Below, piece after piece: positions 13,159-61,759 of a DNA stretch of 64,000 nucleotides (position 1 is its first letter; each line of letters starts with the position of its first letter). The notes under the pieces are model-generated. The model saw only the letters and a program-made list of their open reading frames with translations. It searched no databases and was not told where the DNA came from. Origin of the DNA: Liolophura sinensis (Eukaryota > Mollusca > Polyplacophora > Chitonida > Chitonidae); assembly GCF_032854445.1 (NCBI RefSeq), contig NC_088300.1:24345608-24409607 (forward strand), read 5' to 3'. A program made the position numbers and the translations under genes.

Positions 13159-13163
13159 TGGCC

Positions 13164-20014: not shown

Positions 20015-23000
20015 GTAAGGAACAGCTGATATAACTCATGGTTCATTACACTTTGTGGTCTGACTTTTAATGAAGAATATACTGGTGAAGCGATTTTTAA
20101 TTTCAATTTTATTTTAAAATATATACAGGGGAGAATATTTAATCTTTTTACTACGTTTATTATATGGTATCACATTCCTTATTTAGCTTGTAAGGTACAT
20201 GTACTTGACGGAAGAGAATATTGAGGATGATTTCTAATGTAATACAGAATATGGATATGTGTAACTTTCCCCCGGGTCTGCCTAGTTTCCTCCCACCATA
20301 ATGCTGGCCGCCGTCGCATAAGTGAAATATTCTTGAGTATGGCGTAAATCACCAATCAAATAAATAAATAAATATGTATAACAGCGTATATAATGACATC
20401 GCTTTCTCTTTAAGTATAAGAATTGAATGAACTCGTCACAACAACAATCACCGGAAACCATAATTATTATTACATCGATTTCAGAAAGTTTGAGTGGAAA
20501 TTTGAGTCACTGAACAAGTTTTATTTACATACTCCTGAGTAAAGACACTCTTTTAAAATTGAAATATATACAATATTGAATCTAACATGTTGGCAGTAGA
20601 AGAGGAGGGAAAGTTTCTGTAATAGTAGGTAAAGACTTTCTGAAATGTTAGGAGCTTCACATATTACGAAATTATCAGAACATAATCTAGCACTGTCTTA
20701 TGTCAAATTAACATTTCAGATGCTGTGTTCCGAATTACAAACATATAACTGACATTATGCTATAACATGCAAACAACAATTATATTCAGCGTAACATTTT
20801 AATATATTACCACTCATATTTTACTGCATGGAACACTTTGTATTTTAATTCTTGCCATAGGAAATGTTGATATTTAACCATCTGAGTTTTACAGAGTGAA
20901 CTCAGTGATTCATTTAATTATTTGTAGGAGGCCGATTTCTCCGTTGAAAAGCTTCATGTTAATTCTATTATAACTCATCGCTTCGCCACCACTCACGTGA
21001 CAAGTGTGTTGGTGAATTTAGGGTATTCCCCAAAAGAGGCCATCTTCGATATTCGACTGCCAAAAGGTGCATTCATTTCCAACTTCTCCATGTAAGTATT
21101 TATCTATTTATTTACTTGATTGTTGTTTGCCGACAAGTTCGGGACATTACGATGGATGTCAGTAGTGTGGGTGGAGCTTTGGCTCTCTATGTAAGTCGCT
21201 TTCGCATGTATACTTAGAAAATTAATTTGTCAGTTGTAACAGAAAGTCTGTTATTTAAGCGATGCTAGAATGTAGTCTATTATTATGATATAATACTGTG
21301 TCATATTCAGCAAAATATCCTGTTAGTCTAATAGAATCTCTGTGTTGAATTAATATAATAAGTACATCTTTATGTTGAATTAATAGAATAAGTGCGTCAA
21401 ACATCGGTCGTCTTCGGTGTTAAATTTTAAAAGGCAACCATTGGTTTTCGTGTCTTAAAAACACATTGAAATTCAACGTCACTGAATGTAGAAAACGCAC
21501 TTTGGATCCTTGGATCCAACTTTTCCGTTTTCACATAAATGATTTTATATGCATTGCAAAAAAAACTATAGACTGGATAATAAAGCCTTCACCTAAAACT
21601 GAAATTCACCACAATGTATGGTGGAAATGTTATCGCTGTGGCGTTAAATCATAAAGATTCAATCGTCCTGGAAAACGATAAAACCCGGAACAGAGGTACA
21701 GCATAGAGAGTATGTGCTATAGAGAAAAGTGGCCAATGTTATTATGTAAAAGATAGATGAAACGCTTGGCTTTTATTTCTTAATAGGTAGTATATGATAT
21801 GGTCTAACATAAAAATTACAAAAAGGTTTCAGATTTGCTCTTGGGGTGTAAATATGGCCTTAATGCGCAGATTTCGTAAGGGCCCAATTTCCGGATATTT
21901 TCGACCACTGACGGAAAATATGCATAAAACAAAGGGGTAATGAATAAAATACGCCTCAAAAAGACTTTTTACTATTTTTGTTTTTCTTGGCATACCTTTC
22001 GTCATATTCCTTAAACCCATACTCTTCCGTTTATAGTACCTTTTCATGTATCCTTTATAGGGCCATTACTTGGAAATGAAACTTCGGCGTCCATCTTATG
22101 TGAGAGATTTGAGATTGTCGTTTATGTTTTCACCAGGACCATCGAGGACAAAGTTTACGTGGGTTACATAGAGGAAAAAGAGGCTGCTCAGAAAACGTAC
22201 GACGCTGCCGTGGAACGTGGTCAGTCTGCGGGTCATATCAGGGCAAGGTACGATCCTAATGGGTATTCATAGTAAGTCCTACATAACAGGATCACGTTAC
22301 TGTTAGATTATTGTTTAGGTTCTTCGCTAAAATCATATATCCACCTAATTATTTTTACACGAAAAAGGCGACATATTATCATAAGAGTATCAAGCAACAA
22401 ATTCAAACCTTTTGGACTGTCTTAAATCAGTATTTATTTCTTCAAGTTCTTTGTGATATCATTGGAAACTGATAACTGCTAATATTCCCTTGACATCATT
22501 GAACAGTGATGAATGCTTATCTCGTCCTAATCTCATTGAAAACTGATGACTGCGTATCCTGCCTGACATCAGCGAAAAGTGATGACCGCTTATCTCCCCC
22601 TGACATCCGCGAAAAGTGATGACCGTTTATCTCCCCCTGACATCAGCGAAAAGTGATGATCGTTTATCTCCCCCTGACATCAGCGAAAACCATGAAACCA
22701 TTGAAAAAATAAATGACTGCATGTTTATCCCTGACAAAATCACTTGTGTTTTTTAAAACTTACATGTAAATTTTTTTGTAGTTGGGGATATACTTTAACC
22801 AGAGAATTGGCTGTGTATGAATCTCATATTTGATGTTTATAGCTTGATGTAAATGACCTATTGTAAATAGCCCATTATAAGCAGAATTTCAGCGATTTTC
22901 TTAGAAACCTCGGCTAAGCAATTCATGCTCGCTTCATTGCATTTCCAGAGAAAGCAACAAATTCGCAGCCTCTGTCAATGTTGCGGCAGCCATGAATGTT

Positions 23001-26000
23001 ACCTTCGAACTAACGTACCAAGAACTGCTGGAAAGACGACTGGGCCTTTACGAACACGTGGTCTACATTGACCCGGGTCAACCCGTAGCTGACATGAAGG
23101 TCGATGTGTACATCGTGGAATCTCGCGTGATCACAGAACTGAGCGTCCCACCAATAAGCAATGACCTTATCACAGATGTCATTATAGATGGTGGGTTCCT
23201 TGAGACGCTGATCTACTGTTAGATAACTGTTCTTGCATTGCTTTTATGTTCTTAATTGTAGCTCCATTAACTGCAGGCTATACTTTTCGTGCATTCATGT
23301 TAACCGACCTCATGCTATCAGCTTGTTAAAAGTAAAGACCCAAAAGGAATATATTTCTGCTGCAAAAGCGCATTGTGGGTTTTAACTACTGTGGGTTCTA
23401 ACTAGCTGAATATTTTTGAAATACAGCTTGCTGACAGTTTTTTTGTGGAAACAATAGCCTACAGACTTCGAGTCTTCAAATGGATGTATCCTGTAGCCAT
23501 CATTACACTGGAGATGGTGATAGTTCGACAAGAGTGCCATATAGCTTCCTTTACATCGTCCATTCGCAAATGACCTCAAAGAGGAAATTTTCTGACTGCA
23601 CCGTTTTCCAGGTCTTGGTGGCAACATAGCGGGTAGACAACACTCGTACAGAGCGTTTTAAGTCGTCTTGCTTGCTCTGTCGATGTAAATATAAGTATGT
23701 ACATCACATGTGGGAAAGTTCATCAGATGCTTGCCAAATTTTACTTCGGCCACTCCGTAAAAATGAACTATCCTTGAGTGCGGTTTTGAATAGGCCTACT
23801 AGTCAATCAGTCTATCAATCTTGTATATTTAACAATGTTTCCGCAATGTTTCAGACACAAATGAGTACGCCCGAATTGACATACTGTCAGAATCTTCGGC
23901 TCACATCGCTTTCTCCCCGACACCAGAAGAGCAGAGGCACTTCTCCGAGCAGGGGGTTTCCGGACAATTTATCGTCAATTATGACGTGGAGCATGAAATG
24001 GACGGCGTTGGAGAGATTCTGGTGCGTTCGTTCTGTCCTACATGAATCTTATTATTGATTTACAGATTGTTAGTTATAGAAATTTTACTTACACTGTGCC
24101 GATCAGTTGTAAGGAAACCCGACTGCCCCGGTTAAACCACCAACCTTTGACGAAATTACAGACGATCTTTCGTACCTGCATGTCACCTAGAGGCTCACAC
24201 GCTATATTGTTGGAAGACAACGTAAGACTGTGCAAACGGACGCACGTGCCATCAAGGTGCCTGTACGAACAGTGACAATGGAAGGCGTGTGCAGATTCCC
24301 TATCCAGGGCTGGTATCGAACCAGCACCTCATTAGCTCCTGACTATGAATTGTGCACCTCTCTCATTAGGCTGTATCCCGTTGTTTGCATTCTGTGATGT
24401 TTAAATCTCTTTGTGAATAGCCTATGTTTATAAATCCGCATAGCCTGTATCTAAAAATCTGAATACCCTATGTCAGCGATGCAAGCAAACCAAGTTTGAC
24501 TTCAACTTAACAATATTAAGGCATAGGCAGGTATTTGGATTATCACTACGTCTTTACCAAATCTCTACAATATCTTGCTTTAGTAAACATCACGTTTCTA
24601 GTTATTTAAAATATCATTTTGCTGGTTCCTCTCCAGTCGAACGTGGGAAGGCCTGCCATCAACTAGCGGATGGTCGTGGGTTTCCACCCGGTTTCCTCCC
24701 ACCATAATGCTGACAGCCGTTGTATAAGTGAAATATTCTTGAGTGCGGCGTAAAACACCAATCAAATAAATCAATAAATAAATCAATCTAAGTCTAATTT
24801 TTTTCACTTGAAATTAATACAAAAGTAGGTTAGCCCCCAATATCCAAAGCGAAGTTTAATTGGCATTGTGGACACGAATAATGTATTCATTTGTTGATCA
24901 TTAACTTAAGGAGTTTGTTATGTGGTTTCCTCCACATGGCTTTCCGGTTTCCTCCACCCATAAACTTGACTGCCGTCATATAAGTGAACAGTTCTTCTGC
25001 ACGGATTTAATCACCAATCAGTGAATTAATATCCTGTGTGTATGATGGTGCACATTTGAAACTTGTAAGGCCACAAACGCAAATTACCAACGAATATACA
25101 ATATCTTGAAGGCGATAACTGGTTAGACATGCAACTTCTAGGTTTCGTCTCATATCTAGGTGGCATTAGGCCATATTCATTCATTCTTTTATTCTCCATT
25201 CTCCAGGTAGTGGATGGCTATTTCGTCCACTTCTTCGCTGCCGGATGGCTCGAGCCTCTAAGCAAACGATTGATGTTTGTCATGGACACCAGCGGGTCAA
25301 TGAGCGGGATTAAGATTCGCCAGATGAAGCAAGCTTTGGTGACTATCTTGAATGAACTTAGCCCGGATGATGAGTTTGGAATTCTCACTTTCAGCAGTGG
25401 TGTTCAAAAATGGAAAGGCGGAGAGATATTACCAGCCAGTCTCCAAAACATTGAACAAGCTAAACTTCATGCTGAAACCTTGATAGCTTCTGGGGGTGAG
25501 GCCTTTGGCTTTAATTTTGTTGCACAAAAGTACGACCCGTTAAAATGAAAAAAGTAATATAATTTTATAAAATTGTATGCAGCATTTATGTCAGCTTTAT
25601 ACAATGCCTTATGCTCCCTAAGACAATAATAACGTGATCATTTTGCTATTGCAGCAGAAAATGATATCCAATAATTTAAAATTGTTAATAAAATGTGGCC
25701 ATTAAAATGAGCATTTATATGATATATATATATATTTTTTTGCAGGTACGAATATTAATGCCGCTTTGCTTCTTGGACTTGACTTGTTATCCGGCGACTC
25801 AGACAAATCAAACATGTTGATTTTCTTGACGGATGGTCAGGCTACATCTGGTGTTACCTCTTCGAGGAAAATTCTGGAAAACATCAAGACTTCAAATGAC
25901 GATGTGTCCATTTTTTCGTTGGCGTTTGGTAGTGGAGCAGATTTTAGTCTACTTCAGAAAATCTCTGGTCAAAACAATGGCCTAGCCAGAAAGATTTATG

Positions 26001-29000
26001 AAGATGCTGACGCTACGTTGCAACTCACAGGATTCTACGATGAAATCTCGTCGCCGTTGTTGTCTGAGTTGAAAATAACCTACCTTGGAGATGTCGATAA
26101 CAGTTCCCTAACTGAGAACACGCTCCATTGCCTGTTCGATGGGGCAGAGATGGTTGTGGCCGGTCGACTATCGCTGGACAACAACAGCAACAGTGTTCCC
26201 ACCATCGACATTAATATAGAAGGGAACCTCGTGGATTCGACTCTTGTGATTGACCAGACGTTCAATATGACCGATACTACCCTAGAGGATATTCCCACAG
26301 CATCAGCCGAGGATATCCAAGAATTCACCCACAGGCTCTGGGTGTACCTGACCATAAAACAATTAGTAGCCACCACACGGCAGGCTTCAGATCCGCAAAA
26401 AGTGCAAGAGGCCAAAAACAAGGCTAAGGAATTGGCCTTGAAGGTAAACCAGCCCTACATAACGTGTACAGCTAATCCACAGAGCAGTTTTAGCTACATT
26501 AATAGAAAACTAACAAAAGAATTTATTAAGGCTTATCCGACTATCAACTGAAAAATAGATTCATTTATTTATGAACCATGTAATCGTTGTCTGGGTTCTC
26601 TGACGTCACATGACGTTTCGTTTATGTTGAGCAAAATTAGATCCACTTTTGTCCAATTTTGGACTATTCTGTAAAACGGAATTATTGTGAATCAAAAATG
26701 TTTACATGGCTTCACCGAGACGAATTACAGACCAAATTCGAGTTTTTGGTCGTTTTGCCCATTTCCAATAAAATTATGACCGTTTTTTTTCTTTTAGAGG
26801 CTTTGGCATAGCTATTATTCTGACGACTTGAATCGGTAGGAACATTATTGAACGCCTTGTTTGACTAAGGTATAGATCTCTGCTTTGGCAAATTCGCCTG
26901 AGGTCAAAGATACGGAATCAATCGGTATAGGTATATTGTTGTTTATAAATTAAGTTGAAATTAGTACAGTTAATTCTAGTATGATACAGTATTTCGTGCA
27001 TACTCTAACTTATGTTGAGGAGTTTAGAAATCGGGGTTTGCATTTTCAGTACAACTTTGTGACACCGTTCACATCGATGGTTGTGACGAAACCCGGAGAC
27101 GGCGACGAAGAAGACAAGGAGGTGATGGGCGGCAGACGGCAACATGATAAAGACGATGTCTTCTACGAAGGTAATATAGAATTCCAACATATGTCAACAT
27201 ATGTAACCGATATAAACGAGAAAACAATCTTTATAGATGCCGCCAAGCAAGTCCAAACAACCGTTAGCAGTTAATCAATAAACCCTAGGCTGTATCCACC
27301 TATCACGGCAATTGCCAGTAATAACAGTTGCAAGTGCCACTCGGCATAGACGATATTCTACACATCTCTTCCATAGGCATAGGGCGGACAAAACTTAGGC
27401 CGTGATTATTTGAACAAGGGAGAAGCTGAGAGCAATTATAATGTCTTTGTTAAGAGATAAAAAATCTCTTGTTACATGTGATGTTTGTAGACGTAATTCA
27501 TCTTTGTGAACAGTTTCTTAATAAGCCAATATAACAACTTTTACCCCACCTCTATGCTACCACAACTCTCTCAACATTCCACATGAGTTATTTTCATAGT
27601 TTTAGTCCTGTATTCTTAGAATTGTTCGCTCAAATCAAGAACAGAACATGATCTCCATAAAGACCTTGAAATTAACAAAACAAACATCTTCAACTGCATA
27701 TATCATAATCAATGAAAAAAAGTGATTAACTATGATATTGCCTTTACGCCGTTGCCACAGTATCCTGAAATACTACTGTATGCATCATTTTGTTTATGTT
27801 CATTCATGTTTTTCGACGTAATATCTCTTCCTGATGCCGTTGTCAACAACTCTAGTGTGTGGCTGATTAGTTCGAATGTAAAAAATGAAAATTGTTTTGG
27901 ACTTTTTGGATTACTAATTTAAAAAAAAGTATGCAAATTTTCATGAGGATCTTTAATTGTTTTTCAGATTTGATTTCTCGTGAGTATTATCAAAGTTTTT
28001 TTTCATTTGTTTACACATTACATTTATTTCCTAAATAAGTTTACAAGCTAATGCTAATGTATGAAACGGTTGTTCATCCGTAATTATTATCATTCAGCTG
28101 TTTGTTACTTGTTCAAGTGTATAATTATTTAGTATTTATATACAATTATGAAATTAATCATGCTACTTTACAATTTTTTTTCACAAGATGTTTTTTTTTA
28201 TATTGTCTCACGCAATATTATGAAAACAAAAAATGTACTTTTCACTCATGCGGATGCTTCTGCTACATTTCTCAGACTACGACTTACAACCTATGCCAAT
28301 TCAGCCTCCACAATACGGAGGTAAGTGGATTACCAAATATCAAGAGATACCGGAGATTTTTTAGCAAAAAATCCAGATTCGCCAATGAAATCATATTTTC
28401 TGTAGTTACCGAGAATAGTTCAAATCATTGCCCTTTAGTAAATATCACACTCGTATTTGTTCTATTTATGGTGTTAAAAAGATTCTAAACATTGAAACAT
28501 AATAATAATAGGAAACAGATTTTGAACAGTAACGCATTCACAGACTGGCTGATATTTTGTGAAAGCTAATTATTTGGGCTATTGTTAAGCAACAGTCAAA
28601 CTCGATTGGATTTTTTTTCCCAAAAATCTCAGGTATAGCACGCGTTGTCACTCACCTGTACAAAGATTTAATGAGCTGTGATTTATATCTAAACGGTATT
28701 GAACTATTGATCTAAACGGGAATATGCTATATCATGTCGCTTACTATAAATGTACGATAAAGGACAAAATCGAGTCGCCATTATATTATTGAGATACCGT
28801 ACATAATTGACTTTCCAGACCACTAAATGGGACACTGATAGGCTGGACAAAGAGGTGTAAATCGTAGCAGAATCACACAGATTTCTGCTGTTTCGCTGCG
28901 GTGATTGTGATACACTTTCAAAGTGTTATAGGAAAACTTATAAATACGGTACTGTCGACCAAAATGTGTGATGTAGAACAGAAAAGAACAAAGAAAACAC

Positions 29001-32000
29001 GGCTTTTTTAAAGGCGGGTCGAGTTCCATATATTGTTGATGATTTTTCTTTAACTATACACTTCTGTGAACTTCTTTTAAACTTTTATTGTAATTTTCTA
29101 CCCCAAAACTACTTATAATCTTGCCTTACTACATAATCTGTGTTTTCACTGGTATTCAATTTGTCCAGCTGAAATTGACTTTTTTGCCTATAGGTCCGTC
29201 ATCTGGGTCTACATTCCATAGTCGAGGTAAGCCATGACAAGTCTCACGTGCGAACCACATAAGACATATGTCATATTTGCATAAAGCAAGTGGTTTTCAG
29301 CACCTCCGACGCCTATGAGGCTATTGGCACCGAACTTAAGGTCATTTTTTCACACATTCGTATGCTCTTAGGAACAGGACATTAACTTCCAAGTCAATAG
29401 GTGCTGAACTAGCTGCGGAATATCGCGTGTCTCCAGCATGACGTTTTACTGAGGCCGCACTTCATATAAATGCTTCGGTAAAACAACCGGTATACTTCAA
29501 CACCGTAAACCCCAAGCAAACAAGTTAATTTACTCTGGAAAACAGCTGTTTAATATTTTAACAATTCGGTCCACTCGACTGTCCATACAAACGTCGTGAT
29601 TGTGTGAATGACTTCTGCATGGTTGTTTCTCTGAACTTTTCAGAAAGTGGTGATATCATTATAATAATGCGAATGCTCTCTGTCCCCAGGATATCCGAGC
29701 CTGCCAGGATTACCTGGACTGAGTGGTCCATCCGGCTTAAGGCCTCGTTTGATGCTCAGTGAGTCTATGTTTTATCCATGAACAAACTGTACTTCTATAT
29801 AAATAATATTTATCAATAGGACTATACATTTATAATACTTAAATGCTTCACTGTTTAAAATTTCAACGTCGGGAAGGAAGTAGTAAGAACAACAGCATAA
29901 ATAGTCTCAGAAACTAAGTCCCTGTGTATTTCTTTGTTCGTCTTTTAGTGCAAACTTGTTCCCAGAGTTTCCTCATTAGTTTCCAGGTGTATTTATAGGA
30001 TTAGTTTCCAGACGTTTTACAATATCAGTTTCCACGTGTATTTATAAGATTGGTTTACACGTGTATTTATACGATTGGCTTCCACGTGTATTTATAAGTT
30101 TGGTTTCCACGTGTATTTTAAGATTAGTTTTCTCGTGTATTACTATATGTTATAAATACCCTGATAGTATATATAAAGTGTATTAAAAGTCTTCAGGAAA
30201 GATAATGATGTCCAGAGCACTTGTTTATGTATGTCTATATGTTATAGGTGTATACATATATATATCATTCTATCACAGCTCTGAAGTAATGTGCTCTATC
30301 ATTTTTTGCTACAGACAAGAAAAGGAAACCAGCATATAGCTGTAAGTATACCAGTAATTTAATCCTAGCTTTATGTTCCATTTGAATTATAGAAACGTTT
30401 ACAAGTGCTTTAGTAACTATCAGATTTATTTGAAACTAAACGTTTCGTTAATAGGCCACTCAACAGGGAAAAAAACTGTATTGCAAACATGCAGAATAGT
30501 TCAAAATGTTTCGTCTTACCTGGGGCTAAAATAACAGTCTTAGTTCCAGTTCTCGCATAAACGGAGTATGAGTTGAGGTATTCAAACCAGCGTTATCATA
30601 TCACTAATTAGCGCAGTTAAGATTGTCATAGGCTCCATATTGTGATTAAGTTTTCTGTTACCTATCCGAATGTACTACTGCGTGGGTAGGTATCGTGAAC
30701 GAATAATTAAGGCGCTTACCCTTCAATCGCCAGGTACATCAGGCTCAGGTTCAAACCCGGTCGTACAATTTTTCAGTCATATGACTGCGAAGGAATCCTT
30801 AGAGTGCATTTGACGTGCTTCCTTGTTGTAGGACGTATTTCCACCGCTCTATTATCCAGTGCTGCTTCACTGAGGACAAGTAAGCCGCCCCGTTTGAGCT
30901 GTTGTAATGATACGGATCAACTATTAATTGCACTATCCCCTTAATGCTGAACGCTGAGCGAGGAAGTTACAACTTCCTCTTTTAGGGTCTTAGATGTGAC
31001 TCGACCCAGGATTGACTCTGGATCTACCGCTCCCAAAGCGGACGCTCTACCAACTTGGCTATCAGGACCGGTCCTTGCTACCTTTAACACATGGCTACGA
31101 ATAAGTTCAGTGTATAGCAACGTTAAAATAATATATCTGTTGTATAATGTGTGTTTATTATGCTAATTGTGCTGTTATAGCCCTTTTTGGATAACTTTTT
31201 TTTAGTTTGCAATCCACTCTTTTCCTATACTATTAGTGGTATTTTTTTTTCTCAAGTTTATAGAGTATACTTTGATATCGTTGTTTAGCTGTGTGTTTTG
31301 ATATGTTCTTGTAGTTCCTCAATACACTACGATTAGACCAGTGTTTCACACTTGGGCTTCAAGGACAGCAGCAACAACAACAACAACAGGTTGGTAAGCT
31401 CATGCACCACTTGTGGCCCTGAGAGTATAGCGGAACTGGTGATCAAGAAAGACTTGATCAAAACTTGATCATTACTACTTTAGTGTTTTAGTATTATCAG
31501 TTTTCGCCTTGTTTAATTTTCAGTGCTTATATGTTTTATAGATACTAATAATACTGCTAATAAAAAAACTGTCACCACCGTTATGATGTGAAAAATTTTA
31601 ATTTGATATCAAATGAACAAAAGTGAAACAAAGGACCTCTTGCAACTGGATAGGATATCGTCCCACTTCCGTGCAGTAGGGAAGTGTAATTTTTTTCATG
31701 CAGAAAAACAAGTAAAACTTACATAAATATTAAGCACAATTACTGAAGACTATGTTTGTGAAAAACTGGATTCATGTAATTTATACTTTTTGTTTTATCA
31801 AAAGACAGACGTAGGGACGAAAGCAAATTTTGCTAACTTAAGGCGTTCTCCAGCGGGAATTCTCTTCATAATGAAAATATGATTAGGTGAATCTAAATCA
31901 TTTCCGCATATTTGGTGTCTAGTTAGTTCATATTTTCATAAATCGACAAAAAAAGGAAAAATAATTTGGAAGTTCAGAGGAACTCTACATTCACCATAAC

Positions 32001-34080
32001 ATTCCATTGCTTCCAACGCATTGTTCCTATTGGTCCAGTGATAATATGCGTACCTTGAAATTGTTGTATTGAACAGGTCAACGAGTCCGATTTCTATCAT
32101 AGCATACTTTTTTTTAGTCGCTGACAAAGTAAGATAATGAAGGGGGCATTAATTTCAACCGGACAAGAAATTTCTTTATTGTATTTCTTCATATATTATC
32201 AAGCAGTATGAAACGTAAGTTTAATACAGTATTCTTTCAATGAAAGCTCAACGCCATTTACTTCAGCGAAACAGTATATCGTACAAATACGTTGAGAAAG
32301 GGGGCATATGCTTATCAGTTTAGCTTCCTAAGACACTGTAATATATTCATGGTACAATTCGTAAGACAAAACTTGTTTGAAATGCCAACATTAGACGAAA
32401 AATGTGTCAATTTATTTATTTGATTGGTGTTTTACGTCGTACTCAAGAATATTTTACTTATACGACGGCGGCCAGCATTATGGTGGGAGGAAACCGGATA
32501 GAGCCCGGGTTAAACCCACGACCCTCCGCAGGTTGCTGTCAGACCTTCATACGTATGGCCGGAAAGGAAGCCAGCATGAGCTGGGCGGAGCGAATGCATT
32601 TGTGTCTCCTGGGTCATTACGCTGCGCTAACGCACTAACCAACTGAGCCACGGAGGCCCCTAGACGAAAAAGTAAACTATCCTATGCATTTAACGGCATA
32701 CTGTAGGCCGTTTAGTAACGAGTATTTTAGCTTGGTGTATTTCATCCGTTACACCTTTAACATAACTTCAACCGCATTTCGCAGACGATCTGTCACTGTG
32801 AGCAGGTTGGCTATCGAACTGAGGGACGATTTTCCGTCTTGTTGCAAGGGGTCCGTTTCTGAAGTATTTTGTATCTGGTTGAATAAAGCAATTCGTATCT
32901 AATTTCTCTTCGATTGTATTTCGGGATCGATGTAAAACCTATATTCAGTACAAGTGGTCTTTTCGGACGAAAGTTGACACCCATCCCTTCGGTAACAATG
33001 ATCTTGTTCCTTTAGACATTTTACAATACGAATAACTGCTTAAGTGATCAAACGGTAATGAGTCTGTGCGATCGAGTACACAGGTAGCATATATTATTAT
33101 ATTATTATAATTTAGGTTAAATGCATATGTTTCGATATAAACAACAAATTTACATTCAAATAAATTTATTAGACTAGCATGATATCCTTACTTGGAACAT
33201 TATTGTGCAACAACGATAATACCAAAAGTTGGTCCCAAATACTCACCATACAATACCATTTCTCTTGAAAAAAAAATATTAAAAATCATATTTACAAATA
33301 AGTTTTGATGCACTTTCATCTGACTTTGGCATCATTTTTATGTTTTTTTCTCCCGTAAAATAACATTGATGGGGTGGACAAAATTTTAAGTTCTATAACC
33401 CCAAAAATAAGCTTTAGGATCTTATTTAAATTTTCGTTCGAGCCAAACAACGTTTTAGCAAAGACGGTGTAGTAATTGAGGTGTCACAAATAGTTTCATT
33501 GGGGATCACAACAATTATAAAACAAGGATAATGTGATAATGTGCCTTGTTGTTGTGATAATGTGCCTTATCCTGGTGATAATGTGTCTGATAATGTGTCT
33601 GATAATGTACCTGACCTTCGTTATATTGTGCCTTGTTATTGTGATAATGTACCGTATCTTTGTGATTATGTACTTTATCCTTCTCATAGAATGATGATAG
33701 TCTCAGTGGACGGTACAATTATCATTTCAAAAAAAATACAACGGTCATTTAACGTTACGGTTAATTTAGAACATGAAAATACCTAAAACATAACTTTCAG
33801 CATAAAAAGAAAGTTTTCCGAGAGAATAAGACTTGAAATTCCAGCATTCCAATGTTATTAATGTTAACTTTGCTGTTCTCTATTATAAAAAAACGCTTTT
33901 CCTTTCTGTTTTGTATTAATGCTCATCAGAGATAAAAGGGTTATGATCAGAATGTAATTATTAATGCATATTAGGTCAATTTATAATGAAAGTAACCAAC
34001 ACGTTTGTTCTCCACACAGCACCTAAGAGACGACCGTATGTCACTACGACTCTTCCACCGAAGGTAGCGAAAGGTAAGCG

Positions 34081-34154
<74 letters not shown>

Positions 34155-37100
34155 TGTTATTATTGTATTCAGAAGATTGGCACTTCTGTGATTTTTCGCA
34201 ATCATTCTGGAAAATAACAAATGCTATTTGAAACAATGAAAGACACTGATAATCATCTTGTTAAACAGCACCACGATATAAATGACGCATTTTGATAATT
34301 TTTGTCCAAGCTTATATAAATGCACAATTATCAAACCGACATGGCTAATAACATCTGATAGCATTTCACTGAGTACATCTTTTCCGGTCATTCTCACTCT
34401 CCAGACGCTGGAGCATCATCACAACGGTCATCATCGTAGTCGTCGTCGTCATTTTCGCAATCGGAAAACAAGCCAGAGTTAATATCAGTAAGAACTGACA
34501 CTGACAGTGTCAGCTTGTGCTATGATGCTCTTCCAGCCAGCCAATGGCATTGCATGATATTTACTTATTTATTTTAAACCCACGACCATCCGGACGTTGC
34601 AGGCAGATCTTTCCACTTACGGCCGGGGAGGAAGCCAGTATGAGCTCGACTTGAACTCACAGCGACCACATTGACGAGAGGCTCCTTGGCCTGTCGCGCT
34701 AACCAACGGATGCCCCTGTAAACACAATATTATGTTGTGGTGTAGCTTTCCACCATCCTGGCCATGCATTATGTCACTTTGAGGTAACTATGAAAATGGC
34801 TTTCTTACATTATGACTTCTGCTTTATTATTGCTTATATTTAGTTTCAGGTTACCTTCCGGCCGTAAATGTACGTTTAAATGACCAACAGTCGCCAGGAG
34901 TGGGGATGAACGTTTGTTTTGACATCCCATTGACCGCCACCAAACCCGAGTACACCATCCTCAGGACTGGGAATACAGGTGAGCAACGAATCACATATCA
35001 GCTTAGAATGTTGTTGAAGTTCAGAGTTGCTCTTAAAAATATATGATTTTTAGACAGTTGCAAACATGAGTAAATAGTTGAAAAACAAAAACTCTTATCT
35101 GCACTATTGTCGTTATTTCTTGGTGCCGAAACACTTTCTTAAAAGTAAATGGCTATCTGCATGCATACAGAAATTCGATTAAGCTAGAAAAGAACTGTCG
35201 CTAGGACTCCTGTAAGGCAAATATGCTCAGAATGTAGCTTTTTAACCAAGATATCGGTTAACAAAGACTGATTATATCCGACGACAACTAAAAAAGCAAC
35301 TGCGTATTGTAACCCACAGTTAGTTAGCGCATAGGTGCGGAAAGTACCGAGTGTTAGCGAAAAAAATGCATTAAGCCAGCTTCATTATCTAGTGGTTTTA
35401 GGTGCCATATTATTCCGATTAATGTACAATTTTTTCATAGTCTTTAAACTCAATTTAACTAAATTTTATATATAAAGTGGCAACTTATTTATGAGTAAAT
35501 AATAAGTCTGGACACTAATCATTTAAAGGAATTCAGCGTTTGCTAAGGAAATGTCTATATAGTAAGTTTGTATGAGTTGAAATTGATGGGACCAGATTAT
35601 TACCACACGACCTGCATAGATCCAATCCGATCCGATGGTCTGGCTAATATACACTGTGGATGGCTCACTGTAGGTTGGCTCACCGACACGCAGACTATTG
35701 TTTGGATTTTTGATGGAAGATTCCAACGTCCAAAAATAAACATTTCCTCGGTGTAACGTTTTAGAATCTTGTATTACAGAAGGGCATTGGTTCATTCCTT
35801 CTCGCATAAAAATTTTGTAAGCTTTCTTCTATTCTTACGATATCAGACAGCAAGGGGAAGTGGGAGAGTAGCTTCTGGTACGCTCCAAAAACAAATCCGT
35901 TAATTTCACATAATACGTTTTCTGAGTGGGGGCATAATCACTCAGTGGTGGCATATTGATACAAATAATTATGTTGTCTACGGCACACTTGCCTTTTTAT
36001 TCCATCAAGAATACTTTTGTTGATAGAACAGCGTATTGTGCTGTCTATAGCATATATAATATGATGTTATTATAACATAACTTGTTATACCATCACTTCG
36101 TTTCTGATATTTTTTTTTCAGATGTATCGGGCAAAGTTTCCCGCGGTTACACCAATGGGAAAAAGTTCGCTCAAATTGACATCAAAACGCCAAACATCAC
36201 AGTAAAGATCACGACCCGAACTTTGCGAATCGACGGGAAAAAAACCATCGCCTGGTGGCAACTTAAAAAAGTTAACATTAGCCAAGGGGAAGTAACCGCC
36301 TCTGGTGGACTGAAGCTCGACCTCGGAGGCGATTTATATGTCACGGTTAATGTGTACGGTATTCAGAGCAGAAGATCTCGTGTCAAGCCTTTCCTCGCCG
36401 TCTCCGTGAACTCAGCTAACTGGGCGTACGTACAACCATCTGGCCTCGTGGGTGAGTATTCCGCTAGCTTTTGTAACCGTCTACATTCAGTAACCAATGT
36501 TACTGGCCAAGGAGGCTATGTTTCGGTTTGTGTGTAAGCCTATCAGCAACTTTATGGGTAAAGTTAAAAACAGGAATTTGGAAGAAAGTTTGGTCACATT
36601 CTGGTCTTAGCCGGGTTATAAGATCCCAAGATCGGGATCCAAGAATTAAAAGTAATTCTTCCCATTATTATCCCTTCTTATCTAGTGTGATAATTTGTAC
36701 ATGTATACATAGCTGTGTTGTCCCTTCCTATCTAGTGTGATAATTTGTACATGTATACATATCTGTGTTGTCCTTTCGTATCTGGTGTGATGATTTGTAC
36801 ATGTATATATAGCTGTGTTGTCCCTTCGTATCTTTTGTGATAATTTGTACATGTATACATAGCTGTGTTGTCCCTTCGTATCTGGTGTGATCATTTGTAC
36901 ATGTATACATAGCTGTGTGGTCCCTTCGTATCTAGTGTGATAATTTGTACATAGCTGTGTTGTCCTTTCGTATCTGGTGTGATAATTTTTACATATATAT
37001 GTAACTGTGTTGTCCTTTCGTATCTGGTGTGATAATTTTTACATGTATACATAGCCGTGTTGTCCTTTCGTATCTGGTGTGATAATTTTTACATGTACAT

Positions 37101-38239
37101 AGCTGTGTTAAATGTTTGTGATCTCGAAGAACCTTCTAGTCGTAATCTGCATTTAATGGATTCGCTTTTTCATTAAGAGTATTTATAATGTCGATTTATT
37201 TTGTCGTCGTTGAGATTTTAAATTTTTATTTTAAGTTTTAAAGAGAGAACAGTTGTTTGTATTTCTTCTGATCTTTTTTTTATTAATGACGACAAATGCT
37301 CACCCTTAGTCATGGTTGTTTAATAAGAAACGCGGAAGGAGAAGATTAAGATAACTCCGTTTTGTTTTGCTTTGCTTTTTTTCCAAACGGCTAGCATAAG
37401 GGTGTTGCACGCTGACGGCACTTTGGTAAAATTTTAAGCTATACATATTCGACTTTGTGTTTTATTACATCTCCCAAATACTTGATTTTTCAAAAAAATA
37501 AAAAGCGTTATAAAGATACGCACGTCCTTATTACTCGTTATTTTTTGCTGTAAAGTAAACACCCATGCATTTTCATGCATTTTTTTTCAAAGTAGTGGGC
37601 TCAATATTTAAAAATATTTATATTTGACTGATGTTTTACGTCGCACTTATATTTCACTTGTATGACGGCTGCCAGCGATACGGTGTGGAGGAAACCGGGC
37701 TCGGGGAAACCCACGACCATCCTCAAGGTGCTGGCAAACCTTCCCACACAGGATGGAAGAGAAAGCCAGCATGGACTGAACTTGAATTCATAGCAACCGC
37801 ATAGGTGTGAGGATCCTGGGTCTTTTCCCTGCGCTTGGACGATGATCACTCGGCCACGAATGCCAGTATATTTAAATCAGAGTCTTGAAAGTTGTCTGTT
37901 CATTTTTATATGAAATAGAAAAGAAAATTAACCATGCTATTAAGATGCTTTCATATATGGCGTCCCTTACTTCATGGTGGAAGTATGTAGAGGCTAAGCT
38001 TTAGGTAGCTCTATGTTTGGGTGAATTGTGTATGTGATTTAACCATGAATATTCATTTTCATTTTTCATATCTAGGGAGAATTTTGAAGTTGAAAGAGCC
38101 CCAAGTGAAAGGAAACCAGCTGGTGTATAGGAAAAAAGTGCAGAAATCTGTTCCTGTGCAAGAATATACTTTGCTGGAAAACGACATTTGTAACCGCATT
38201 ACAGATTCCAACATTGTCACTGAGTTATTAAAACTGTAA
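19952..38239 (+). CDS. ITIH-like gene, copy A (17 exons, 926 aa, complete)
   Basis: Secreted protein of the inter-alpha-trypsin inhibitor heavy chain family. In vertebrates these proteins bind hyaluronan and extracellular matrix; here that role is inferred. Joining 17 exons with GT/AG borders gives 2,781 coding bases with no internal stop: 19952-20014, 20928-21091, 22137-22247, 22949-23190, 23855-24021, 25207-25495, 25746-26443, 27050-27170, 28276-28320, 29194-29226, 29690-29758, 30315-30341, 31315-31389, 34020-34073, 34850-34978, 36122-36451, 38076-38239. Domains: signal peptide 1-20, VIT about 22-150, vWA about 270-450 (MIDAS D276-x-S278-x-S280, T347, D375), Gly/Pro/Thr linker about 619-719, ITIH C-terminal domain about 720-926. 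The length matches vertebrate heavy chains (roughly 900-950 aa). The start ATG has A at -3 and G at +4. The DPHF chondroitin-attachment motif of vertebrate heavy chains is not seen. Sequons include N73, N129, and NIT and NIS sites in exon 16. Gene B is the tandem copy. Confidence 0.9.
20262..20375 (+). mobile_element. SINE family 1 tail copy in ITIH-A intron 1
   Basis: CTAGTTTCCTCCCACCATAA to CACCAATCAAATAAATAAA. 5'-truncated. Copy B counterpart at 46626-46735. Confidence 0.68.
20928..21091 (+). CDS. ITIH copy A exon 2: VIT domain, first part
   Basis: Residues 22-75 plus two bases of codon 76. Acceptor TTTGTAG, donor GTAAGT. Contains the VIT pattern HVNSIITHRFATT followed by DIRLPKGAFISNFS, matching heavy-chain N-termini. 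N73-F-S is an N-glycosylation sequon. Confidence 0.92.
22137..22247 (+). CDS. ITIH copy A exon 3: VIT domain core
   Basis: Residues 76-112. Carries the family hallmark KVYVGYIEEKEAAQKTYDAA followed by VERGQSAGHIRA, nearly identical in style to vertebrate ITIH. Acceptor TTTTCACCAG, donor GTACGA. The intron-exon joints restore M76 and R113. Confidence 0.93.
22441..22690. repeat. 37-bp minisatellite in ITIH-A intron 3
   Basis: CTGACATCAGCGAAAAGTGA units at 22564, 22601, 22638 and 22675, with degenerate units before. Copy B (48831-49030) has fewer units. Confidence 0.85.
22949..23190 (+). CDS. ITIH copy A exon 4: VIT domain end
   Basis: Residues 113-193. Motifs ESNKFAASVNVAA, FELTYQELLERRLG and YEHVVYIDPGQPV are typical of heavy chains. 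N129-V-T is a sequon that copy B lacks (Ser there). Acceptor ATTTCCAG, donor GTGGGT. Confidence 0.92.
23855..24021 (+). CDS. ITIH copy A exon 5: VIT-vWA connector
   Basis: Completes D194 and runs to residue 249, through FSPTPEEQRHFSEQGVSG and IVNYDVEH, the conserved connector before the vWA domain. Acceptor ATGTTTCAG, donor GTGCGT, phase 0 exit. Confidence 0.91.
24112..24430 (-). mobile_element. tRNA-like SINE, only in copy A intron 5
   Basis: Copy B lacks this stretch (junction near 50115). On the minus strand it contains GGTTCGATACCAGC, a good RNA polymerase III box B. An insertion in A or a deletion in B are both possible. Confidence 0.45.
24643..24790 (+). mobile_element. SINE family 1 copy in ITIH-A intron 5
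   Basis: GTGGGAAGGCCTGCCATCAA through GGTTTCCTCCCACCATAATG to CACCAATCAAATAAATC. Counterpart at 50283-50422. Confidence 0.68.
24925..25030 (+). mobile_element. diverged SINE family 1 tail in ITIH-A intron 5
   Basis: GGTTTCCTCCACCCATAAAC then GACTGCCGTCATATAAGTGA. Counterpart at 50822-50930. Confidence 0.5.
25207..25495 (+). CDS. ITIH copy A exon 6: vWA domain with MIDAS
   Basis: Residues 250-345. Contains VDGYFVHFFAAGWLEPLSKR, then the MIDAS DTSGSMSG (D276, S278, S280), a divalent metal-ion site. Acceptor TTCTCCAG, donor GTGAGG. Confidence 0.94.
25746..26443 (+). CDS. ITIH copy A exon 7: vWA second half and following region
   Basis: Residues 346-578. Completes the MIDAS with T347 (GTNIN) and D375 (FLTDGQATSG) and continues to KNKAKELALK. 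Acceptor TTTTTTGCAG, donor GTAAAC. The ending is fixed by the family: LALK joins directly to YNFVTPFTSMVV of exon 8. The frame stays open into the intron up to 26551, but that tail evolves like intron. Confidence 0.92.
26601..26616. promoter_or_regulatory. CRE plus half-site in intron 7 of ITIH copy A
   Basis: TGACGTCA followed two bases later by TGACGT. The same arrangement stands in copy B at 52745-52760. Possible CREB/ATF sites; function unproven. Confidence 0.22.
27050..27170 (+). CDS. ITIH copy A exon 8: conserved FVTP-TSMVV segment
   Basis: Residues 579-618, YNFVTPFTSMVVTKPGDG followed by an acidic stretch. This is the end of the conserved N-terminal body of heavy chains. It exits in phase 1, and every later internal exon is symmetric phase 1. 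Acceptor CATTTTCAG, donor GTAATA. Confidence 0.92.
28276..28320 (+). CDS. ITIH copy A exon 9: Pro/Gln linker micro-exon
   Basis: 45 bases encoding DYDLQPMPIQPPQYG. Acceptor TTTCTCAG, donor GTAAGT. Phase 1 at both ends. Copy B encodes DYDYQPMPIQPPQYG. Confidence 0.8.
29194..29226 (+). CDS. ITIH copy A exon 10: Gly/Ser linker micro-exon
   Basis: 33 bases encoding GPSSGSTFHSR. Acceptor TTGCCTATAG, donor GTAAGC, phase 1-1. Only a broken remnant remains in copy B (55602-55620). Confidence 0.72.
29690..29758 (+). CDS. ITIH copy A exon 11: collagen-like Gly-Pro micro-exon
   Basis: 69 bases encoding GYPSLPGLPGLSGPSGLRP plus four residues. The glycine spacing is reminiscent of collagen, but the run is too short to be a triple helix by itself. 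Acceptor TGTCCCCAG, donor GTGAGT, phase 1-1. Confidence 0.8.
29975..30140. repeat. 25-bp minisatellite in ITIH-A intron 11
   Basis: About six units of GGTTTCCACGTGTATTTATA. Starts at 30028, 30053, 30078, 30103 and 30127 give the period. Missing from copy B. Confidence 0.85.
30315..30341 (+). CDS. ITIH copy A exon 12: basic micro-exon
   Basis: 27 bases encoding NKKRKPAYS. Acceptor TGCTACAG, donor GTAAGT, phase 1-1. The flanking introns align with copy B, but the exon itself is quite different there. Confidence 0.68.
30761..31072 (-). mobile_element. SINE family 2 copy in ITIH-A intron 12
   Basis: From CGTACAATTTTTCAGTCATA to a tRNA-like head at the right end. The GTGAGTGAG end is missing. 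Directly upstream (30748-30758) lies GGTTCAAACCC, an exact box B, from another tRNA-like sequence also present in copy B (57700-57716). Confidence 0.68.
31315..31389 (+). CDS. ITIH copy A exon 13: Thr-rich micro-exon
   Basis: 75 bases encoding FPQYTTIRPVFHTWASR followed by TAATTTTT, a likely O-glycosylated stretch. Acceptor CTTGTAG. The donor is CAG|GTTGGT; the stronger-looking GTAAGC four bases on would put exon 14 into a stop, so the weaker site is preferred. Confidence 0.72.
32409..32660 (-). mobile_element. SINE family 1, full-length copy in ITIH-A intron 13
   Basis: On the minus strand: tRNA-like head GCCTCCGTGGCTCAGTTGGT, central conserved part (CGGCCATACGTATGAAGG), GGTTTCCTCCCACCATAATG, and tail CACCAATCAAATAAATAAA. 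Resembles described molluscan V-SINE or Meta-SINE families; the exact name was not verified. Confidence 0.78.
33519..33680. repeat. GATAATGT tandem repeat in ITIH-A intron 13
   Basis: Irregular 12- and 21-base units starting GATAATGTG. The same array begins in copy B at 63918. Confidence 0.8.
34020..34073 (+). CDS. ITIH copy A exon 14: basic/Thr micro-exon
   Basis: 54 bases encoding APKRRPYVTTTLPPKVAK. Acceptor CCACACAG, donor GTAAGC just before a (TA)n tract. Phase 1-1. Confidence 0.72.
34084..34147. repeat. (TA)n microsatellite in ITIH-A intron 14
   Basis: Begins ten bases after the donor of exon 14. Confidence 0.95.
34559..34716 (-). mobile_element. SINE family 1 fragment in ITIH-A intron 14
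   Basis: Central and head parts only (ACCCACGACCATCCGGACG, GAGGAAGCCAGTATGAGCTC, and a decayed head CGCGCTAACCAACGG-like). Confidence 0.6.
34850..34978 (+). CDS. ITIH copy A exon 15: start of C-terminal domain
   Basis: 129 bases, GYLPAVNVRLNDQQSPGVGM then NVCFDIPLTATKPEY. It aligns with the start of the vertebrate heavy-chain C-terminal domain (the part containing LCFNI), but LPAV stands where vertebrates have DPHF. Acceptor TAGTTTCAG, donor GTGAGC. Confidence 0.85.
36122..36451 (+). CDS. ITIH copy A exon 16: C-terminal domain core
   Basis: 330 bases, residues about 763-872, from DVSGKVSRGYTNGKKFAQID to the VQPSGLVG joint. Contains two sequons (NIT, NIS). The final GLVG corresponds to the GLLGQ motif of vertebrate heavy chains. 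Acceptor TTTTTTTTTCAG, donor GTGAGT. Confidence 0.88.
36660..37115. repeat. 50-bp minisatellite in ITIH-A intron 16
   Basis: About nine units; TCTAGTGTGA at 36681 and 36731 sets the period of 50. Each carries a GTACATGTATAC palindrome-like core. Confidence 0.88.
37617..37862 (-). mobile_element. SINE family 1 copy in ITIH-A intron 16
   Basis: Near full-length: GATGTTTTACGTCGCACTTA to a head ending CACTCGGCCACGAATGCC. Confidence 0.68.
38076..38239 (+). CDS. ITIH copy A exon 17: C-terminal end and stop
   Basis: Final 54 codons including TAA at 38237-38239. Encodes GRILKLKEPQVKGNQLVYRK and ends CNRITDSNIVTELLKL, resembling the vertebrate C-terminus (conserved Cys and a terminal DG-hydrophobic pattern). 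Acceptor CATATCTAG. Confidence 0.82.
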
Positions 38240-39670: not shown

Positions 39671-39892
39671 TCGTCAATGGCACCTAACTCGGCTCTACAG
39701 AGATAAAACCCATTGCAAGAAGTAGGGGAATACATTCCTTTGATAAGTTTCCCCAATTAATGTTTTTGACTAACTTGGCACATTTACCAACAAACCTCAA
39801 GAATAATTCTTTAGCATGATTCATTTTCTTATTTAGATGCGGGAGGATCTCAACCATGCACCCGGTCATTGTGTTTAGTGGAAACTTAATTG

Positions 39893-40189
39893 CTTAATCC
39901 AGACGAGGATTGCCTTATCGAGGTGTTTGTAGATGGATTGGCTGTGTCTAAGGTGGGGTGTGTTACGGATGCCGTCACTCTTGCAGTCGCATTGTACTAC
40001 ATATTCACCATATCCTATCCAAAGGAGTTGAACAAGACACTTTCGGTTATCCAGGGAGTAATCTTAAATATCCAAAACAAGAGGAAGCTACCACCTCGCG
40101 TATCGGTTCAACTAAAACAATTAAATGTGTTTTTAATTTGGCACAGACATGCCAAGCTGCCAGTAATTAGTGGAATGATGACAACATAG
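39893..40189 (+). pseudogene. gene fragment, copy B (SAMD3-like C-terminus?)
   Basis: Open for about 98 codons to TAG at 40187: NPDEDCLIEVFVDGLAVSKV, YYIFTISYPKELNKTLSVIQ, then KRKLPPRVSVQLKQLNVF. There is no ATG start. A possible upstream continuation, HPVIVFSGNLIA (39858-39893), is one frame off, so a frameshift or a missing exon border is likely. It could be a terminal exon or a relic. Confidence 0.45.
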
Positions 40190-41109
40190 CAATTAAATAT
40201 CTGTATTTTTCTGTAAATCGTGACTCACAGTTTTGAGTACAGTTTAATTCTGACAGAAAGTTTGTGTGATTTATGCCATTCTTAATGGAAAAGAGAGCTC
40301 AAAATGGAATTAAGCCTCACCAAATAGACAATTGACAATTACGTAACTAGAAAACACATATTTTTTTGGTATGAGTTTAGCACTTAAATGTATTGAAATG
40401 ATTTATTTCTATAAGCTGGTCAATTTGGAGCTTACTGCCTGTATTTGGAAACTCTGTGGTCAAAGGAACTATTGAAACACTGAATACTGCTTAGAGTGGG
40501 GACAAGTGTTTGAGACGACAGATTACTTAGATAATGGTCACAAATGTCGCGATGAGAGTTGGCCGTCACGTGTAGTTGAATATAGAACTAATGCATTTGA
40601 ATACATTTAACTCATTTGAATACATTTAACAAATAACATTGTACCAGTATGCTTACTTTTCAGTTGTCTGTCTGACGAATCTTAGGTCATTTTGTTAGCT
40701 TTCACTTTCGCTTACAAGCACTGTGATTACGTACACTTTCTTACCTTGACAGTCTGCACTTTGGCAGTCTAACCATTTGCGCTCTTGTCACTTTGACGGT
40801 CGTAAAATCGTCGTTTCCGAGATAGAATTTTCACTATCGCAAATTAATAACTGCGAAGAACTTATCAGTCTGAGTATGTCCGCCGACGAATACTTGGAAT
40901 ACTTGACGAACTGCTCTAATTTCACATTTGACTAACATTGGTTAGTCAGTTTGATGAATATATCCCGGACCAATTTGATGACTACATTTTAAAATTTGGC
41001 CAACCAAAATTCGTCCTTATTATCAATGTATATTGGTCAATGTGATTATCCTTAAATGGTCGTCTGCGAGATAGAAATTTGACCACACTTTATTTGTTAA
41101 AATGATTAA

Positions 41110-41645
41110 GAAATGCTTTTCAGTGGACCTGTCGGACGGACATAGTACACAGGTTTTTATAACCCTCTCAGACATAGAACACCGGATTACAAGGGCAATG
41201 TATGGGCTTTATAACCGTCCCGGACAAAGAACACCGGATTACAAGGGTTATGTATGGGCTTTATAACCGTCCCAGACATAGGACACCGGATTACAGGGGC
41301 TATGTATGGGCTTTATAACCGTCCCAGACTTAAGACACTGGATTAAGGGTAATGTATGGGCTTTATCAACCTGTGGGACAAAGTACACATGATTACAAGG
41401 GCTGTGTATGGGCTTTATAACCATCCTAGACATAGAACACCGGACTACAAGGCTATTTATGGGCTTTATAACCCTGACGTAATTTGCTTAAGAAGTTACA
41501 GTGGCGTCAATGAGCCACATAGGACACCGATATTACAAGAGCTATGTATAGGCCTTATCAAGCTGTCGGACATAGTACACCAGATTACAAGGAGTATTTA
41601 TGGGCTTTATAACCCTGTCAGATATAAGACACAGGATTACAAGTC
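41110..41645. repeat. 52-bp minisatellite, locus 3
   Basis: About ten units of the same family, at the position corresponding to locus 2 in the duplication. One unit is interrupted near 41480-41520. Confidence 0.85.
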
Positions 41646-41974: not shown

Positions 41975-44010
41975 AATAACTGCAAGGCCAATAACTTACC
42001 CTCTATGGCATGGGCAACCTCACTAACCTTCCTTCTGTGATATGGACAAGGTCAATAACCTTCCTTCTGTGATATGGATAAGTCCAAAAACGTACCCTTT
42101 GTGATATGGTTAAGGCCAACAGCCTACCCTCTGTGATATGGCCAAGGTCAATGACCTTCCGTCTGTGATACGGATAAGGCTAAGAACCTAACCCCCGTGA
42201 TATGGGCAAGATCAGTAAACTACACTCTGTGATATGAAAAAGATCAGTAACCTAACATCTGTGATATGGACAAGGTCAATAAACTGCCGTCTGTGATAGG
42301 GACAAGGTCAGTAAGCTACCCTCTGTGATAGGGACAAGGTCAATAAGCTACCCTCGGTGACATGGACAAGGTCAATAAGCTACCCTCGGTGACATGGACA
42401 AGGTCAATAAGCTACCCTCGGTAACATGGACGAGGTCAATAAGCTACCCTCTGTGACATGGACAAGGTCAATAAGCTACCCTCTCTGATATGGATAAGGT
42501 CAATAAGCTACCCACTGTGAAATGGACCTTGTCCATAACCTTCCCTCTGTTATGAGGACAGGTAAATAACATACCCTCTGTGATATAGACAATGTCAATC
42601 ACCTACCCTCTGTGATATGGACAAGGTCAATAACCTAACCTCTGTGGTATGGACAAGGTCAATATCCTACCCTCTGTGATATGGGCAAGGTCAATGAGCC
42701 GTTTTCTGTGATATGGACAAGGTCAGTTAGCTACCTTGTGTTATATGGACAAGGTCAATAAGATACCCTCGGTGACATGGACAAGGTCAATAAGCTAACC
42801 TCTGTGATATAGACAAGGTCAATAACCTACCCTCTGTGATATGGCCAAGGTCAATGACCTTCCGTCTGTGATACGGATAAGGCTAAGAACCTAACCCCCG
42901 TGATATGGGCAAGATCAGTAAACTACACTCTGTGATATGAAAAAGATCAGTAACCTAACATCTGTGATATGGACAAGGTCAATAAACTGCCGTCTGTGAT
43001 AGGGACAAGGTCAGTAAGCTACCCTCTGTGATAGGGACAAGGTCAATAAGCTACCCTCGGTGACATGGACAAGGTCAATAAGCTACCCTCGGTGACATGG
43101 ACAAGGTCAATAAGCTACCTCGGTGACATGGACAAGGTCAATAAGCTACCCTCGGTGACATGGACAAGGTCAATAAGCTACCCTCGGTAACATGGACGAG
43201 GTCAATAAGCTACCCTCTGTGACATGGACAAGGTCAATAAGCTACCCTCTGTGATATGGATAAGGTCAATAAGCTACCCACTGTGAAATGGACCTTGTCC
43301 ATAACCTTCCCTCTGTTATGAGGACAAGGTAAATAACCTACCCTCTGTGATATAGACAATGTCAATCACCTACCCTCTGTGATATGGACAAGGTCAATAA
43401 CCTAACCTCTGTGGTATGGACAAGGTCAATATCCTACCCTCTGTGATATGGGCAAGGTCAATGAGCCGTTTGCTGTGATATGGACAAGGTCCAGTTAGCT
43501 ACCTTGTGTTATATGGGACAAGGTCAATAAGCTACCCTCGGTGACATGGACAGGGTCAATAAGCTAACCTCTGTGATATAGACAAGGTCAATAAGCTACC
43601 TTCTGTGATATGGACACGGTCAATAGCCTACTCTGTGTGGTATAGACAAAGTCAATAACCTACTCTCTGTGATATGGACAAGGTCAATAACCCAACCTCT
43701 GTGATATGGGCAAGGTCAATAACCTTCCCTCTGTGATATGGGCAAGGTCAATATCCCAACCTCTGTGGTATGGGCAAGGTCAATAACATAACCTCTGTGA
43801 TATGGGCAAGGTCAATGAGCCACTTTCTGTGATATGGACAAGGTCAATAAACTACCCTATATAATATTAACAAGGCCAATATGCTACCCTCTGTCATGTG
43901 GACACGGTCAGTAAGCTACCCCATATAATATGGACAAGGTCAATAAGCTAACCTCTGTGATATGGACAAGGTCAATAGCCTGCCCTCTGCGGTATGGACA
44001 AAGTCAATAA
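41975..44010. repeat. 32-bp minisatellite block, about 63 units
   Basis: Unit of the form CTGTGATATGGACAAGGTCA plus ATAACCTACCCT. Unit variants repeat in order with a higher-order period of about 703 bases (42135 to 42838). Absent from the matching place in copy A (about 18045). Confidence 0.92.

Positions 44011-46307: not shown

Positions 46308-61759
<15,452 letters not shown>

Follow-up and report, generated by a model that had tools for sequence, protein, structure and literature searches.

A probable phase-1 frame around a variable predicted linker in ITIH-like genes of the mollusc Liolophura sinensis

In ITIH4 (PDB 9c4f), a body composed of VIT and vWA domains is followed by a proline- and threonine-rich linker that precedes the C-terminal domain, and the accessible text of PMC12455821 reports a human brain transcript, Tx71, which skips exons 15 and 16 of this protease-susceptible linker. 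A variable, protease-sensitive region with alternative exons is also described, in the available part of PMC7016707, for the thioester proteins of molluscs (BgTEP2, BgA2M and BgCD109 of a snail and CfTEP of a scallop), which are secreted immune proteins. Gly-rich linkers of extracellular proteins are stated in an excerpt of PMC8001218 to favour phase-1 introns, with a bias towards class 1-1, that is, phase 1 at both ends. The present analysis concerns an ITIH-like gene and its tandem copy (copies A and B) in a stretch of 64,000 nucleotides (nt) from Liolophura sinensis (NCBI RefSeq assembly GCF_032854445.1, contig NC_088300.1, positions 24,345,608 to 24,409,607 of the forward strand), hereafter the window, whose numbering is used throughout.

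It is likely that a phase-1 frame flanks the linker of these genes and that class 1-1 linker exons vary from gene to gene within a putative ITIH-family hinge. According to the predicted exon borders, an exon ending in phase 1 precedes the linker and a class 1-1 exon follows it in the copies that are readable, while the make-up of the linker, in how many exons it has, how long they are and what they encode, is not the same in copies A and B and, by prediction, varies further in three paralogs.

Copy A lies on the + strand and was modelled as a 17-exon gene, with exon 1 (19952-20014) and exons 2-17 (20928-38239) in a single open frame and GT-AG borders at all the introns from exon 2 to exon 17. 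The intron phases are 0, 2, 2, 1, 0, 1 and 0 ahead of the linker, followed by phase 1 at nine consecutive introns. Exons 9-16 of the initial annotation (28276-36451; 45, 33, 69, 27, 75, 54, 129 and 330 nt, all class 1-1) were reproduced base for base. The features of copy A are as follows.

19952-20014, + strand: exon 1, predicted signal peptide (20 protein letters, not shown); ATG frame, hydrophobic core, GTAAGG donor, ends in phase 0; counterpart at 46308-46370
20928-21091, 22137-22247 and 22949-23190, + strand: exons 2-4, body; open frame
23855-24021, 25207-25495, 25746-26443 and 27050-27170, + strand: exons 5-8, body; open frame, exon 8 ending in phase 1
28276-28320, + strand: linker exon 9, 45 nt, phase 1-1; model frame, joins test and chaining; equal size in copy B (54547-54591)
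29194-29226, + strand: linker exon 10, 33 nt, phase 1-1, restricted to copy A; model frame, joins test and chaining; without splice sites in copy B
29690-29758, + strand: linker exon 11, 69 nt, phase 1-1, short Gly-X-Y run; model frame; 72 nt in copy B through -6 and +9
30315-30341, + strand: linker exon 12, 27 nt, phase 1-1, basic (KKRK); model frame; 21 nt in copy B, residues differ, both splice sites retained
31315-31389, + strand: linker exon 13, 75 nt, phase 1-1, Thr-rich; model frame; 84 nt in copy B
34020-34073, + strand: linker exon 14, 54 nt, phase 1-1; model frame, joins test and chaining; equal size in copy B (L009, 539-592)
34850-34978, + strand: exon 15, 129 nt, phase 1-1, opens the C-terminal region, without DPHF; model frame; equal size in copy B
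36122-36451, + strand: exon 16, 330 nt, phase 1-1, ITI_HC_C-like; model frame; weak alignment to paralogs
38076-38239, + strand: exon 17 including the stop codon; model frame; copy B counterpart

By its predicted product, copy A is a secreted ITIH-family gene with signal, VIT, vWA, linker and an ITI_HC_C-like end. The secretion signal was judged by the hydrophobic start exon of both the copies. Pfam searches identified a VIT domain in the body (PF08487, 8.9e-30), followed by a vWA domain (PF00092, VWA, 1.6e-16). Among the solved structures, ITIH4 (PDB 9c4f) is the best match (1.7e-116), its alignment extending from the body into the linker up to chain residue 740, and ITIH1 (PDB 6fpy) matches the VIT and vWA body (3.6e-93). 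Exon 16 was placed as ITI_HC_C-like because exon 16 of two paralogs, P7m and P7p (see below), is recognised as ITI_HC_C (PF06668; 8e-19 and 1.3e-22, respectively) and aligns weakly with that of copy A (25 and 18% identity); the structure predicted for exon 16 alone is too poor for use (mean predicted local distance difference test score 53).

The linker is richer than body exons 2-7 of copy A in Gly/Pro (25% vs 9%), Lys/Arg (14% vs 8%) and Thr (13% vs 7%), in keeping with the Gly/Pro, basic and Thr-rich spacer between the vWA and C-terminal regions proposed initially. None of the 45 forward joins among exons 8-17 creates a stop codon at the junction, which bears out the claim that any subset of the exons can be removed without a frameshift, and Gly occupies the split codon in four of the nine junctions from exon 8 to exon 17. 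The label micro-exon is loose, as only exon 12 (27 nt) of the eight exons falls within the limit of 27 nt or less used in the consulted part of PMC8378409; another abstract sets the limit at under 30 nt. The exchangeability claimed for the linker holds in the evolutionary sense, with copy B lacking a usable exon 10 and three paralogs carrying other predicted linker exons.

Copy B was examined through the following features, exons 14-17 of which lie past the window end, in L009.

46308-46370, 47286-47449, 48510-48620, 49284-49525 and 49855-50021, + strand: copy B exons 1-5; open frame
51109-51397, 51828-52525, 53498-53618 and 54547-54591, + strand: copy B exons 6-9; open frame
55599-55620, + strand: copy B relic of exon 10; AT where the donor GT would stand, and no visible acceptor
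56214-56285, 57276-57296 and 61676-61759, + strand: copy B exons 11-13; open frame

The frame of copy B is open across 16 exons with exon 10 omitted. Exons 9, 14, 15 and 16 are equal in size to those of copy A, while exons 11, 12 and 13 are 72, 21 and 84 nt (+3, -6 and +9), all of them class 1-1. Copy B serves as a partly independent test of the copy A model. One of the eight exons, exon 10, is usable in copy A only, at no cost to the frame; loss in copy B and gain in copy A are both possible. A tblastn search of the 20 kb before the window and the 30 kb after it found no further gene copy. The copies are separated by about 63 units of a 32-bp array (41983-44010); related 52-bp tandem arrays occur at 13157-13427, 16865-17365 and 41156-41473, and a 1.8-kb match links 15523-17297 to 39877-41643. 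Intron 12 of copy B carries an insertion of about 3.4 kb (57715-61137), with open frames at 59370-59849 and 59853-60374 that are retroelement-like by eye and gave no Pfam match.

Divergence between the two copies is distributed unevenly. Aligned sites differ at 513 of 10,391 positions in introns, 35 of 1,792 in body exons 2-8 and 23 of 201 in linker exons 9, 11, 12 and 13. Body exons 2-8 carry no indels, and each linker exon that changed in size did so by a net multiple of three (exon 11, -6 and +9; exon 13, +9; exon 12, net -6), as against 20 of the 75 intron indels. The codon comparison leaves out exon 12, which is not safely alignable, exon 10, which is absent in copy B, and split codons. 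Linker exons 9, 11, 13 and 14 have 17 differences that alter the amino acid and 5 that are silent, and body exons 1-8 have 12 and 24, respectively (12 replacements in 1,437 sites and 24 silent differences in 417). The replacement and silent rates are 0.102 and 0.085 in the linker, 0.008 and 0.058 in body exons 1-8, and 0.036 and 0.055 in exons 15-17, the linker replacement rate being far above that of the body (p = 1.4e-10).

A genome search with exon 7 recovered eight loci, namely A, B, P7m and P7p (C7), P2a and P2b (C2), P13 (C13) and P1 (C1). The five paralogs other than P1 share most of the body exon layout, as judged by tblastn. Exon 8 ends in phase 1 in all seven multi-exon copies by DNA reading, with weak donors in P7p and P2a, and the edges of exon 16 are 1-1 in six of the seven (A, B, P7m, P7p, P2a and P2b), P13 being excluded as its exon 16 has stops. 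The linkers of P7m, P7p, P2b and P13 were chained (P2a was left out); the two ends were held at phase 1, and the phases in between were free. The exons predicted between exons 8 and 16 are all class 1-1 in P7m (36 and 69 nt, and an exon 15 of 114 nt), P7p (84 and 114 nt) and P2b (291 and 117 nt), and the linker content varies by gene, from Ser-rich through Gly/Arg-rich to Thr-rich. The motif DPHF, located where the C-terminal region begins, is typical of heavy chains and is presumably the heavy-chain transfer site. It is present in exon 15 as predicted for P7m and P7p (DPHFV and DPHFI) and absent from A, B, P2b and P13; by these predictions DPHF is not universal in this gene group. Exon 16 of P2b gave no match to ITI_HC_C. 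The stops in the exon 16 region of P13 (L032) and the frame breaks of P2b described below point to possible decay or assembly error. P1 (L037, C1:40705621-40706361) has its body in one uninterrupted 707-codon frame, which stops shortly beyond the body in a run of hydrophobic residues and includes no linker.

Since the flanking phases are 1, class 1-1 linker exons can be added, resized or lost without harm to the C-terminal part. A phase-1 frame common to the gene group is the best explanation of the symmetric run and allows genes to exchange linker exons in the course of evolution, and the run in copy A would fit the class 1-1 bias of extracellular Gly-rich linkers. The linker would be a Pro/Gly/Thr-rich and basic spacer, probably unfolded, at the place of the protease-susceptible proline-rich region of ITIH4. 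A hinge or bait role is suggested because PMC12455821 describes the ITIH4 region as susceptible to proteases and as containing a site cleaved by MASP-1. In the proposed mechanism, the linker would act as a flexible, glycosylated, protease-cleavable hinge in which frame and general composition outweigh the exact sequence, and some of its exons might, less likely, also serve as cassette exons in RNA.

Several observations weigh against this interpretation. All the exon borders are predictions, and the hinge role is argued from position and composition. The proposed forms of exons 11, 12 and 13 were unrecovered by chaining in copy A, and their splice sites are weak. Exons 15-17 of copy A gave no Pfam match at E up to 10, and neither Pfam nor PDB gave a match for the C-terminal part itself. 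A single exon between fixed phase-1 ends must be class 1-1, which makes the paralog chains modest evidence; the 69-nt exon of P7m is lost at a higher penalty, and the P13 chain joins a class 1-1 exon 15 of 192 nt to non-symmetric exons, perhaps foreign sequence. Frame breaks occur in body exons 5 and 7 of P2b (L034, L036), a gene that may be decaying. Triplet slippage accounts for part of the size changes in multiples of three, because one change in exon 11 adds a Gly-X-Y triplet and one in exon 13 adds ACA units.

Candidate exons (phase-1, a multiple of three in length, 9-150 nt) were counted using weight tables, with score floors set post hoc at the weakest proposed exon. The 8,951-nt linker stretch holds nine such candidates, seven of which are exons 9-15, while none of 200 Markov-resampled stretches reached nine (mean 1.2, maximum 8). 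No candidates occur in copy A introns 2, 3, 4, 5 and 7; weak candidates are not rare, because for every 8,951 nt of control DNA the 18 kb upstream yield 3.5 and the window's minus strand yields 3.9. Summed scores of at least 11 are found for exons 9, 10, 14 and 15, and among the controls at 0 sites in the 18 kb and 2 in the 64-kb minus strand. Chaining was run blind to the proposed exons at four penalties in both copies. Exons 9, 10, 14 and 15 of copy A were recovered at all four penalties, exon 11 solely via another acceptor (29644) at three, exon 12 at none and exon 13 solely as a 79-nt form at two. In copy B, exons 9, 12, 14 and 15 were recovered at all four, exon 11 at three, and exon 13 at all four, solely in an 88-nt form that uses a donor 4 bases downstream. 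One to three additional exons were called in each copy, in copy A per run and mostly within repeats. Among the rejected candidates were one of 48 nt inside a repeat (30832-30879) and an extra acceptor (TTTAG) 6 bases upstream of exon 15 that is absent from copy B. A 12-base phase 1-1 exon in intron 8 of copy A (27968-27979), with good sites and chained at two of the four penalties, lies in a stretch missing from copy B and is noted only in passing. In both copies the exon 7 frame runs on into intron 7 for 35 codons without a stop (26444-26548 and 52526-52630; 3 residues differ); retention of this intron would give a protein ending before the linker, although the open stretch may be due to chance.

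These results leave some room for the view that certain exons, with 10, 12 and 13 as candidates, are unreal and that the linker is shorter or joined otherwise, which we regard as rather doubtful. Exon 10 lacks splice sites in copy B, the interior of exon 12 is rewritten there, and exon 13 has the lowest score of the nine candidates (2.8). Both copies carry a tandem donor, CAG/GTTG/GTAAGC, at the end of exon 13 (31389-31393 and 61759-61763), at which the proposed site scores 2.1 and the +4 site (ending at 31393), picked by chaining, scores 3.4. However, the +4 donor shifts the frame, and the model frame then meets a stop in exon 14 with loss of the C-terminal part; the chains that avoid this stop need extra exons at 30832-31148 in copy A and 60894-60985 in copy B, which are wholly or partly repeats. 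Moreover, exon 10 of copy A has the second best score, and the splice sites and multiple-of-three sizes of exons 11, 12 and 13 persist in copy B amid many interior changes; the case for exons 11-13 comes from frame conservation more than from splice scores. Regulated alternative splicing of exons 9-14 in copy A, the initial suggestion, would allow up to 64 subsets and many protein forms. It accords with the in-frame forward joins and with the weak sites of exons 11-13, which would fit partial inclusion; animals are enriched in frame-keeping exon skipping according to the available part of PMC6142364, and Tx71 omits exons of the equivalent region in human ITIH4. That precedent makes skipping plausible and the idea less new, and the statement that such an arrangement is not described for ITIH proteins is too strong across the family; a mollusc ITIH splicing study was not found among the matches listed in the open-access library searched. 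On the other hand, the family frame explains the symmetry without skipping, and the phase symmetry would permit skipping rather than give evidence of it. The introns near the linker exons are not specially conserved between the copies, which offers no support for regulated cassette exons. On balance such splicing appears rather unlikely. Of the 27 TGCATG sites of the window, 3 lie in 27171-36121, about the share expected by length.

Diversifying selection on a linker acting as protease bait, as suggested for thioester proteins, would account for its rapid change and for the replacement of the KKRK motif of copy A in copy B. The linker replacement rate exceeds both the mean intron divergence (p = 0.004) and the pooled silent sites (p = 0.043), but the excess is not significant against the intron within 100, 200 and 300 bases of exons 9, 11 and 13 (p = 0.24, 0.14 and 0.27, respectively). 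Introns within 80 bases of exons 9 and 11-14 differ at 88 of 717 sites (12.3%), and those beside exons 2-8 at 56 of 1,029. Positive selection, seemingly likely against the intron mean and unsupported against the local flanks, is not claimed, and this explanation is held to be quite improbable; the linker, as aligned, diverges at about the local neutral rate with its frame kept. An extension of the bait idea, in which tandem copies and splice forms of the genes without DPHF would set a range of cleavable linkers into an otherwise constant protein of body and end domain, is likewise a long shot. Least probable is that copy B is a decaying duplicate whose differences are uninformative on function. 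The absence of a usable exon 10 and the insertion in intron 12 would suit it, but its frame is open across 16 exons and the body shows far fewer replacements per site than silent differences, a comparison that is silent on which copy is constrained.

The favoured interpretation, a shared phase-1 frame around linker exons that vary between genes, would make these genes a clear, young example of an extracellular protein whose linker can be remodelled one exon at a time thanks to such a frame, and copy B, without a usable exon 10, provides a natural experiment within one locus. Copies A and B share the VIT and vWA body with ITIH1 and are without DPHF. Copy A would differ from ITIH4 in its linker, modelled as six short class 1-1 exons, and differs in its C-terminal part, which Pfam misses directly. 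Phase 1 on either side and Gly at the split codons also characterise the class 1-1 modules of extracellular proteins described by Patthy; these are folded domains, whereas the units of copy A are short pieces, probably unfolded. The thioester proteins form a separate family in which, according to the accessible text on them, the variation was observed in transcripts and involves mutually exclusive exons in BgTEP2 and CfTEP, whereas the linker exons of copy A are predicted from genomic sequence. If cassette splicing were true, an invertebrate ITIH protein would be added to the thioester proteins among the secreted proteins with a variable exposed region, and a linker serving both as cassette and as protease bait would correspond, within the ITIH family, to the bait regions that mollusc thioester proteins splice alternatively.

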